Below, in pieces: positions 23,295 through 26,646 of a DNA stretch of 37,074 nucleotides. This stretch comes from Alphaproteobacteria bacterium (GTDB taxonomy: Bacteria > Pseudomonadota > Alphaproteobacteria > Puniceispirillales > Puniceispirillaceae): NCBI GenBank assembly GCA_011524805.1, contig WTJO01000038.1, forward strand, positions 1 to 37,074, in the 5' to 3' direction. The translations under genes were made by a program, and so were the position numbers. How positions within the stretch are numbered: position 1 is the stretch's first letter; each line of letters starts with the position of its first letter. Below the pieces are notes generated by a model, which had not been told where the DNA came from, made no database searches, and saw only the letters and a list, made by a program, of their open reading frames with translations.

Positions 23295-24305
23295 ATGTCC
23301 GAGACACAGATTGCCAGTCTTGACAGGCTAACACAGGCACTTGCAGATGAAATGCCGGAGGTAAACCAGATTATTCTGGCACGGATGGAGTCCGAAGTGC
23401 CGTTAATACCCCAGCTTGCAGGCCATCTGATAGCCGCAGGCGGGAAGCGGCTTCGCCCGCTTATTACGCTGGCAGGCGCCCAGCTGGCAATGGCACAGAA
23501 TAATATCACGGTGATGCCACAGGCGGCACGCTATCTGGCGGCGGCGGTGGAATTTATCCATAATGCCACCTTGCTACATGATGATGTGATAGATAAGTCT
23601 GATCAGCGGCGGGGCAGACAGACAGCCAATGCATTGTGGGGCAATGAGGCATCTGTGCTGGTAGGGGATTTTCTGTTTGCGCGTGCATTTGAGCTGATGG
23701 TCGAAACAGACGATATTCAGGTGCTTCAATTGCTGGCATCTGCGTCTGCGCGCATCACTGAGGGCGAGGTCAAACAGATGACTGTACAAAATGCGCCAGA
23801 CAGTTCAATCGACGATTATATGTCTGTAATTACCGGCAAGACAGCGATATTATTTGCCGCCGCCGCCCATGCTGGCGGGCGAACCGCACAGGCAGATACA
23901 CCGCTTCGCGATGCATTGCATGCCTATGGGCTGGCATTGGGGCGGGCATTCCAGATTTGTGATGATGCGCTTGATTACGTAAGCGATGCGCAGAAAATGG
24001 GGAAGAATGCAGGAGATGATTTTTATGAAGGCAAAATCACCCTGCCCGTGATTTTTGCCTATCAGGGGGGAGATGCAGACGAGCGCGCCTTTTTTGACCG
24101 CACGCTAGCTCAAAGCGATATTCAGGAAGGCGATCTTCATCACGCAATAGAGATTATCAACCGCCATCAGGGCATTGAACGCGCCCTTGATATGGCAGAT
24201 GAATTTGTAGAACAGGCAATTGCCGCGCTGGATATCGCGCCCGATGGCGAGATGAAACAGGCGCTGATTGAGGCAGCACGGTTTTCAGCCCGCCGCCCCA
24301 GCTAG
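23295..24305 (+). CDS. Polyprenyl (octa/decaprenyl) diphosphate synthase
   Basis: 'GGKRLRPLITLAGAQL', first Asp-rich motif 'LLHDDVIDKSDQRRGRQTANALWGNEASVLVGDFLFARAFELM', second motif 'GRAFQICDDALDYVSDAQKMGKNAGDDFYEGKITLPVIFAY'. Confidence 0.95.
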   Translation: MSETQIASLDRLTQALADEMPEVNQIILARMESEVPLIPQLAGHLIAAGGKRLRPLITLAGAQLAMAQNNITVMPQAARYLAAAVEFIHNATLLHDDVIDKSDQRRGRQTANALWGNEASVLVGDFLFARAFELMVETDDIQVLQLLASASARITEGEVKQMTVQNAPDSSIDDYMSVITGKTAILFAAAAHAGGRTAQADTPLRDALHAYGLALGRAFQICDDALDYVSDAQKMGKNAGDDFYEGKITLPVIFAYQGGDADERAFFDRTLAQSDIQEGDLHHAIEIINRHQGIERALDMADEFVEQAIAALDIAPDGEMKQALIEAARFSARRPS

Positions 24306-24333: not shown

Positions 24334-24563
24334 TCAGGCCGTTGTGCCTTTCAGCTTGTCAAAACTTCTGATGCCCGCCATGCCGAGCAGTGCAAGCAAT
24401 AGCTCAAATAGAATATCCTGAGGCAATTCTGGCACCGCCATTTCAATACCGGCGGCAGAGAATAGGCCTGTAAGCAGAGGCTGGCCGACAAACATCCAGC
24501 CTATACCCGCAGAATTGGCCGCCAGCCTGCAACAAATAAAAAACGATGCGCCGCCTCAATCTG
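24334..24563 (-). pseudogene. Degenerate phage/GTA-type 3TM holin remnant, frame disrupted
   Basis: Minus frame A (about 24560-24501): 'QIEAAHRFLFVAGWRPILRV*'. Minus frame B (to stop 24334-24336): 'SAGIGWMFVGQPLLTGLFSAAGIEMAVPELPQDILFELLLALLGMAGIRSFDKLKGTTA*'. Together they resemble the FVAGWRP...GWxFxxxPLL...LLGMLGLxGxRTxxKxKG layout of 3TM holins, split by a frameshift near 24511-24516. Confidence 0.6.
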
Positions 24564-25148
24564 GTTGATGCCTATCTGCATCAATATATCTATCGAGGCA
24601 CGCCGAAAACCCTGCCGGAAAATCTGCGCTACCACCTAGCTACGCTTCTGGGCATTCATGAATCCGAATTACGCGAAACAGCACAGGATATTGCTATCCC
24701 TGATGCAGTATTTCTGCCGTGGCTGGATATTGATATCAGCGCCGGCCATGGCAGTATATCTGATGATCTGGCAGAAGCTGGGGATAGCTGGGTGTTTGAC
24801 AGGCAATTTTTGCAGCAAATAAGCCATGCAGATATATCTGCATTACGGATGCTGTCTGTGAAGGGGGATTCCATGTCGCCTGTACTGGAAGATGGCGATA
24901 TGATTTTGATAGATCTGAACGACACACAGCCCAGCCCGCCCGGAATTTTCGTGCTGTTTGACGGCGTCGGGCTGATGACAAAATCAGTTGAGCTTATCCC
25001 GCATTCTACCGCAGGTCAGGTCAGGATTGCGCCTGCAAACCCGCATTATTCTGCCTATCAGCGCTCATATGATGATATCCGGATTGTCGGGCGTGTTATC
25101 TGGTTTAGCCGGCGGCTGGTACGTTCGGGCGCATCACGGCATTTCTAG
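24546..25148 (+). CDS. S24 peptidase-fold repressor-like protein (LexA/CI C-terminal type), N-terminal HTH apparently incomplete
   Basis: 'VKGDSMSPVLEDGDMILIDLN' and 'GVGLMTKSVELIP' match S24 Ser/Lys motifs; 'DAYLHQYIYRGTPKTLPENLRYHLATLLGIHESEL' resembles the distal half of an XRE-type HTH. In-frame stop at 24537-24539. Confidence 0.82.
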   Translation: MRRLNLVDAYLHQYIYRGTPKTLPENLRYHLATLLGIHESELRETAQDIAIPDAVFLPWLDIDISAGHGSISDDLAEAGDSWVFDRQFLQQISHADISALRMLSVKGDSMSPVLEDGDMILIDLNDTQPSPPGIFVLFDGVGLMTKSVELIPHSTAGQVRIAPANPHYSAYQRSYDDIRIVGRVIWFSRRLVRSGASRHF

Positions 25149-25272: not shown

Positions 25273-26646
25273 ATGTCTGGTTCATCCTATCGCCGAAAAT
25301 CTGGAAATCGTGGCCGCAGAGCAGAGCAAAAACTGCCGCGCAACAGCCCGCCTATAACGGTGCATATCGACAGGATAGGCGGTGGTGGTGACGGCATTGG
25401 CGAGGCTGAGATAACGCTGAATTATCAGCCGGAAATGCGCCGTGTTTTCGTTCCGAACACGCTAGCTGGCGAGCAGGTGACAGTTCAGCCAGTCCATATT
25501 ACCTCACAAGGCATCAAAGCAGAGCTTGTTGAGCTTATTACCGCCTCACCAATGCGCACCACTCCTGCCTGCGAGATAGCCTTTAGCTGTGGCGGCTGTC
25601 AGTTACAGCATCTTTCTGAGGATAGTTACCGTGACTGGAAAACAGACCAGCTAGTCTCGCTATGCCGAAAATCAGGTCTAGCACCAAACAGGGTGGAGCC
25701 TGCCTTTTTTGCACCAGAAGCAGATAGACGGCGCGCCCGTTTTGCCTTCCAGAATACCGCCTCAGGTCTTGTGCTTGGCTTTTTTGCGCGTCAGTCACAT
25801 CATATTCTTGGCCTTGATAGCTGCGTGATATTACGGCCTGATCTGAAGGCCATATTGCCAGCATTGCAGACATGGCTGGAAAATGGCCTGCCAGCCGGAA
25901 GCAGAGGCAGCATACAGGTCAATATGGCAGATGAAGGTGCAGATATTCTGCTGGTAACAGAGGCAGGATTTAGCACAGATACGCTATCATCTCTTAGCGC
26001 AACAGCCCATCAGACAAAGGCAACGCGGATTTCAACTGCCACATCTGACCAGCCTGTGCCTGTACCTATCTTTGTTGCTGCCGCCCCGCATCTGTCAGAT
26101 ATTGGGCTGCCAACAGCGATTCCTGCTGGCTGTTTTCTGCAATCTAGCCAGAGCGCCGAAGCCGAAATGCAACAGCATATCCGTGATGCGCTAGCAGGAT
26201 ATAACAGGATTGTGGATTTATTTTGCGGGGTGGGCACATTTTCAGCCCCGCTATTATCTGCATCCAGACAAATATTCGCAGCAGATAATGACGAGATGGC
26301 TGTTGCTGCCTATCGTCAGGCCGCACATAATAAGGGGCTGGCACAATCGCTTAGCGTTGGCACTCGCAATCTGTCTGAGGCACCGATACGCGCAGATGAG
26401 CTGGCAGGATATCAGGCAGCGATTATTGACCCGCCACGTTCAGGTGCTGCTGCACAAATGCCGCATATCAACGCCTCGGCGCTGGAACTGGTTGTGATGG
26501 TATCTTGTAACCCGCATAGCCTGTTTAAGGATATTCAGCATCTATGTGATGGCGGGTTTGAATTTGACAGTCTGAAACTGATTGACCAGTTTGTCTGGTC
26601 AACCCATTGTGAAGCGATTGCCATTTTGCGCCGCCCACACAGATAG
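25273..26646 (+). CDS. TrmA/RumA-type class I SAM-dependent RNA m5U methyltransferase (RlmD-like)
   Basis: TRAM-like N-terminus, Cys cluster 'CEIAFSCGGCQLQH', 'DLFCGVGTFSAPLL', 'AIIDPPRSGA', 'VVMVSCNPHSLFKDI'. Confidence 0.9.
   Translation: MSGSSYRRKSGNRGRRAEQKLPRNSPPITVHIDRIGGGGDGIGEAEITLNYQPEMRRVFVPNTLAGEQVTVQPVHITSQGIKAELVELITASPMRTTPACEIAFSCGGCQLQHLSEDSYRDWKTDQLVSLCRKSGLAPNRVEPAFFAPEADRRRARFAFQNTASGLVLGFFARQSHHILGLDSCVILRPDLKAILPALQTWLENGLPAGSRGSIQVNMADEGADILLVTEAGFSTDTLSSLSATAHQTKATRISTATSDQPVPVPIFVAAAPHLSDIGLPTAIPAGCFLQSSQSAEAEMQQHIRDALAGYNRIVDLFCGVGTFSAPLLSASRQIFAADNDEMAVAAYRQAAHNKGLAQSLSVGTRNLSEAPIRADELAGYQAAIIDPPRSGAAAQMPHINASALELVVMVSCNPHSLFKDIQHLCDGGFEFDSLKLIDQFVWSTHCEAIAILRRPHR

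Follow-up and report, generated by a model that had tools for sequence, protein, structure and literature searches.

Genes and gene remnants at the locus

The window, the whole stretch of 37,074 nucleotides that was analysed, is part of a 46 kb contig (C40) in a draft genome of 2.11 Mb that comprises 276 contigs and is 97% complete. This genome is the only one sampled from its genus, and both lesions described below are seen in one strain. A search for a congener or further strain yielded none, and two loci picked up at 39% were of no help. Between an ispB-like and an rlmD-like housekeeping gene, which identify the same locus across relatives, the window carries the remnants of two phage-type genes on opposite strands (Table 1).

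Table 1. Features between and including the two flanking genes, in window coordinates
Feature	Position	Strand	Evidence
Polyprenyl diphosphate synthase (ispB-like), left flank	23298..24305	+	PF00348, E 6e-71; conserved in relatives
Holin remnant, C-terminal piece (G009 residues 85-140)	24334..24507 (match 24507-24340)	-	tblastn, 59% identity, E 1e-11
Internal holin loss, net 16 nt, frame-shifting	24508..24512	-	5 nt versus 7 codons (21 nt) in G009
Holin remnant, middle piece (G009 residues 59-77), other frame	24513..24569	-	53% identity
Fusion point of large deletion, antisense holin joined to S24	24543..24569, best estimate 24567	.	start of S24 homology
First seven codons of the S24 ORF, MRRLNLV, without S24 homology	24546..24566	+	antisense to holin piece
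S24 (LexA/cI-like) repressor remnant	24567..25148	+	PF00717, E 8e-12; phrog_4 repressor, E 8e-24; alignment
RlmD/TrmA-like class I SAM RNA methyltransferase, right flank	25273..26646	+	PF05958, E 1e-11; conserved

Two minus-strand frames both match a single 3TM holin of 141 aa from the relative G009, which substantiates the proposal of an earlier note, made from the sequence without database searches, that one holin is split here between adjacent frames. The C-terminal frame, which contains SAGIGWMFVGQPLL and ends with GIRSFDKLKGTTA before a stop codon, reaches an E value of 3e-17 in a genome-wide search, and the ATG-started ORF within it (24334-24495, 53 aa) translates as MFVGQPLLTGLFSAAGIEMAVPELPQDILFELLLALLGMAGIRSFDKLKGTTA. 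The middle piece, whose frame contains INQIEAAHRFLFVAGWRPIL, is certain to about 24543 and possible up to 24569. Neither piece's score was equalled in dinucleotide shuffles (0/2000 each). The antisense string INQIEAAHR, considered as proof that holin extends to 24569, was not significant when taken alone, 582 of 2000 shuffles being as good. The short spacer between the pieces agrees with the deletion of about 16 nt that had been suggested; its edges are uncertain by 1-2 codons, and the genome-wide alignment gives 24513.

The membership of this holin in PF11351 (GTA_holin_3TM), also proposed in the note, failed in the direct search but held through homologs. Across the broken frames of the window the profile scores 14.7 bits, under the curated cut-off of 24.8 bits, while homologous holins from the same locus pass it (33.0 bits in G009, 25.1 bits in G023); because they do, the window piece is taken, by homology, to be a relic of a PF11351 family member. 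The 53-aa ORF alone yielded nothing useful against Pfam or NCBIfam because it is too short. With residues 1-58 and 78-84 missing and the frame broken, an intact three-TM holin is absent, and the remaining piece would be unable to make one.

On the plus strand, the S24 ORF (24546-25148) starts after an in-frame TAA at 24537, as originally read. It retains the HTH from the recognition helix onward, the A-G motif and the Ser-Lys peptidase domain, with the Ser (GDSM), the Lys (MTKS) and the A-G site preserved in the alignment. The suspected lack of the first HTH helices is borne out: helices 1-2 are absent relative to the S24 proteins that G005, G001, G018, G012, G002 and G008 encode at this locus, and the protein alignment begins at DAYLHQY, within the recognition helix. 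Against G001, G005, G002 and G012, in all of which the HTH is intact, nucleotide homology starts at 24566-24570. An extension of S24 upstream past the 24537 stop, derived from a profile alignment, was rejected, since 527-914 of 1000 shuffles were as good. The MRRLNLV codons are probably antisense holin, and the start codon of the ORF is probably accidental, its ATG supplied by antisense holin through the deletion. The C-terminal part is open for about 194 codons, and its rate of change does not exceed that of ispB, with distance ratios near 1.0; the corresponding ratio for the stop-ridden S24 copy of G017 is about 1.7.

The locus in related genomes

A complete cluster of about 17-18 kb is present in four genomes of the order (G005, G010, G025 and G031), between the same flanks or beside ispB. 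The genome of G005 is a single contig of 2,753,527 bp, in which about 18 kb separates the two flanks. There, an S24 gene is divergent from an operon encoding DUF6362, TerS, TerL (Terminase_6), a DUF4055 portal, a P22-like coat, a head-tail adaptor, a minor tail protein, tail gpM/L/K/I/J-like proteins, a porin, a 3TM holin and a phage lysozyme. The other three clusters follow the same gene order, apart from some replacement at their lysis end: the interval of G025 and G031 holds a predicted M15 peptidase, and no lysozyme match was found in it. The coat matches P22_CoatProtein (PF11651, E 3e-9) and phrog_283, and no Pfam model of the HK97 capsid matched in the complete element.

Several further features of these clusters were observed. 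Within the cluster, the gpJ-like gene and the lysis genes are separated by a Porin_4 gene (L058 16408-17484, with weak matches in L074 and L075), and the gpK-like protein carries JAB and NlpC/P60 domains, as in lambda K (L058 11030-11902). The PF11351 holin of G025 is located elsewhere in its genome, at G025:C1:1012154-1012507, and G034 likewise has PF11351 holins away from the ispB locus (G034:C219 and C171); these perhaps represent moved lysis genes or other prophages.

Other relatives retain the element in part. G001 possesses lysozyme, holin, coat, portal, terL, terS, DUF6362 and S24, and the tail is absent. G018, G012, G011, G002, G008 and G021 keep only edge genes, in various sets of lysozyme, DUF6362, terS and S24. 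G009 and G023 share the arrangement ispB, holin (-), lysozyme (-), an N-truncated S24 remnant and rlmD, the holin of G023 being divided between two frames, and in G013, G024 and G017 the S24 gene is truncated or stop-ridden. In G004, 32 holin residues (107-138) lie 9 bp from 30 S24 residues (158-187), which is a separate and even shorter version. In G006 and G020 the site is empty, the flanks lying 49 and 70 bp apart. The same spot in relatives thus supplies the longer genes that were expected, a longer holin in G009 and G023 and a longer S24 in G005, G001, G012 and G018. Four states are found in four genomes of one genus (G001, G018, G011 and G024), so the losses are repeated and partly recent. 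Overall, terL is present in 9 of the 136 genomes of the order. The survivors are the edges of the element adjoining the two housekeeping genes, as would be expected where internal deletions are free and the flanks are under selection.

Family f4 (L077-L081: G027, G030, G033, G036 and G039) has only an S24-type gene between ispB and rlmD. Its product, of 216-227 aa, has a well conserved HTH and is missing the catalytic Ser-Lys pair; the host may have retained it as a repressor for a role of its own once the element was gone, and it would be non-cleavable like RogA.

Nature and origin of the intact element

In an intact element, S24 would repress the divergent operon. Where the A-G site and the Ser-Lys pair are kept, as in G005, G001 and G012, DNA damage would trigger self-cleavage, and with it the production of particles and lysis through holin and endolysin. 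The intact element would then work as an S24-repressed particle-and-lysis module, probably DNA-damage inducible in those copies. Such a module could not operate in the window, where particle genes and endolysin are missing, the holin is broken and what remains of S24 has an incomplete HTH.

The head, packaging, lambda-type tail and lysis genes and the S24 repressor could also be those of an ordinary temperate prophage, no longer mobile; the locus would then be a prophage graveyard rather than the seat of a GTA. This proposition is evenly poised. Several observations weigh against it. The element occupies the same site in two host families, and the six TerLs of the order group as a single clade (100/99) on a long stem, apart from phage and other alphaproteobacterial TerLs, with a best phage identity of 46% for TerL (36.5% for the coat). 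The five-gene element tree is congruent with the host families, separating f1 (99.5/99) and f2 (100/100) with G512 and G242 outside. Moreover, the four complete copies, for which the larger unassigned ORFs were listed and ten proteins scanned, showed no recognisable integrase or replication gene. Vertical inheritance is indicated by the fixed locus in two families together with the trees, which comprise six genomes. A domesticated, vertically inherited element fits the fixed locus, the family-level congruence and the lack of recognised mobility genes.

GTAs are defined as caudoviricete-derived, endogenised elements that co-diversify with their hosts, package mostly random host DNA, cannot package their whole own genome and deliver DNA (PMC9662315). 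Intact relatives of the window locus encode caudoviricete-derived particle proteins, namely terL, portal, coat, adaptor, tail, holin and lysozyme. It is conceivable, though less likely than not, that the intact locus would be a functional GTA that arose independently of RcGTA and BaGTA and that all of the SAR116 order generally carried in the past. Its repeated, independent loss in streamlined lineages would then be recorded by the window and its relatives, with family f4 keeping only a repressor whose HTH is preserved and whose catalytic residues are gone. What the genomes suggest is an old, fixed-site phage- or GTA-like element, apparently vertically inherited and eroding repeatedly in the SAR116-type (Puniceispirillales) lineage.

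Related clusters were also encountered in further genomes. G242 (L104-L105), from another family of the class, carries an S24-DUF6362-terS-terL-portal-coat cluster near an rlmD-like gene, and the element of the ispB/rlmD locus may be older than the order because of it. G512 (L102-L103), likewise placed in another family of the class, has the same gene order. In G302 (G302:C1:1652000-1691000; L100-L101), a P22-like coat and a DUF4055 portal are followed by tail ORFs of DUF2460, DUF2163 and NlpC types that resemble RcGTA g12-g15 by eye, a possible hybrid of RcGTA-like and P22-coat cluster kinds.

Probable formation of the scar

The junction in the window is very probably the scar of an old phage-derived element that once lay between ispB and the rlmD-like gene. 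The two fragments abut at about 24567, between flanks shared with relatives that have longer genes, which upholds the idea that a deletion fused a holin to a divergent repressor; the fusion is placed within a short interval (Table 1) because holin is certain only to about 24543 and S24 homology runs from 24566-24570. In the ancestral element, the S24 repressor would have been transcribed towards rlmD, and the divergent packaging-head-tail operon would have ended with holin and endolysin beside ispB. One deletion, most likely at about 24567, took out everything between the interior of the holin's 5' half and the S24 recognition helix, together with the endolysin and whatever structural genes remained. 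A second, small lesion, at that time or earlier, broke the holin frame. The S24 ORF of today would start at a chance ATG from antisense holin, and its product would be a peptidase domain without a complete HTH.

The account in the earlier note is refined on two points. The loss of both 5' parts is confirmed, yet the holin frameshift is a separate lesion and not part of the fusion deletion. The loss also extends beyond the 5' ends of an adjoining pair to everything that lay between them: the endolysin and, where the element is complete, the entire set of head and tail genes. Searches of the rest of this 97% complete genome turned up no terL, no coat and no further holin of the same type. In itself, the scar is an ordinary product of decay.

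The short S24 ORF could instead encode a working protein kept by selection, a peptidase or dimerisation domain that does not bind DNA and acts by modulating another LexA/S24 protein. Its open codons, the retained Ser, Lys and A-G site and the absence of acceleration relative to ispB are compatible with such a role, and the C-terminal half is kept longest in other relatives too (G009, G013 and G024). Even so, this role is unlikely: the start codon falls in non-S24 sequence, the corresponding open frame of G009 has no Met ahead of the catalytic Ser, and S24 is eroded to residue 154 of 200 in G023 and to 158 in G004, as expected if the rlmD neighbour alone spares its 3' end. A rate near that of ispB fits recent truncation and would also fit retained peptidase function; recent truncation is favoured because the start codon appears accidental and the comparable stubs of G023 and G004 have eroded further. 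Lacking a complete HTH, the stub most likely represses nothing any more.

With 276 contigs in the draft and a single strain to represent the genus, the junction and the frameshift could in principle both stem from an assembly error, either a mis-join or the collapse of an element. Such an artefact is highly improbable given that the junction lies inside a 46 kb contig, that the lost genes do not turn up in any other part of this genome and that independent scars of like kind occupy the same place in relatives, including the one-contig genome G013.

Comparison with known systems and significance

The intact element resembles RcGTA and RcGTA-like type I GTAs (Rhodogtaviriformidae; PMC9662315) in being an endogenous, apparently vertically inherited caudoviricete head-tail cluster of Alphaproteobacteria, and in possessing a Terminase_6-type TerL and a 3TM holin of the family that Pfam names for GTA release. 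It differs from RcGTA, which has an HK97-type capsid, in its P22-like coat (PF11651), DUF4055 portal and lambda M/L/K/I/J-like tail tip; all its genes also lie together at a single locus, the repressor included and the lysis genes in most cases. If a GTA, it would be a type distinct from RcGTA.

A second comparison is RogA of Caulobacter, a LexA-like HTH-S24 protein without catalytic residues that represses a GTA through the activators gafYZ (PMC9632790). By its published description (PMC9632790), RogA shares the order of HTH and LexA/cI-like S24 domains with the proteins described here; it lacks catalytic residues, whereas the S24 proteins of the window and G005 retain Ser and Lys, and it acts on gafYZ, while the S24 gene of the SAR116 element is arranged head-to-head with its structural genes. 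Prophage remnants in decay generally likewise show internal deletions and frameshifts that spare edge genes, but the locus differs from them in its fixed position in two host families, its graded, independent scars and its distinct TerL lineage.

No prior description of this element was found in the open-access literature searched, and the scar in the window leads to a phage-like element that holds a fixed site, is distributed across an abundant marine order and apparently has not been described. Seen at a single locus in complete, partial, minimal and empty form, it offers a natural series on the keeping or losing of GTA-like elements in streamlined ocean bacteria. At least one complete copy lies in a finished, single-contig genome that may belong to a cultured strain, which would make particle production directly testable.
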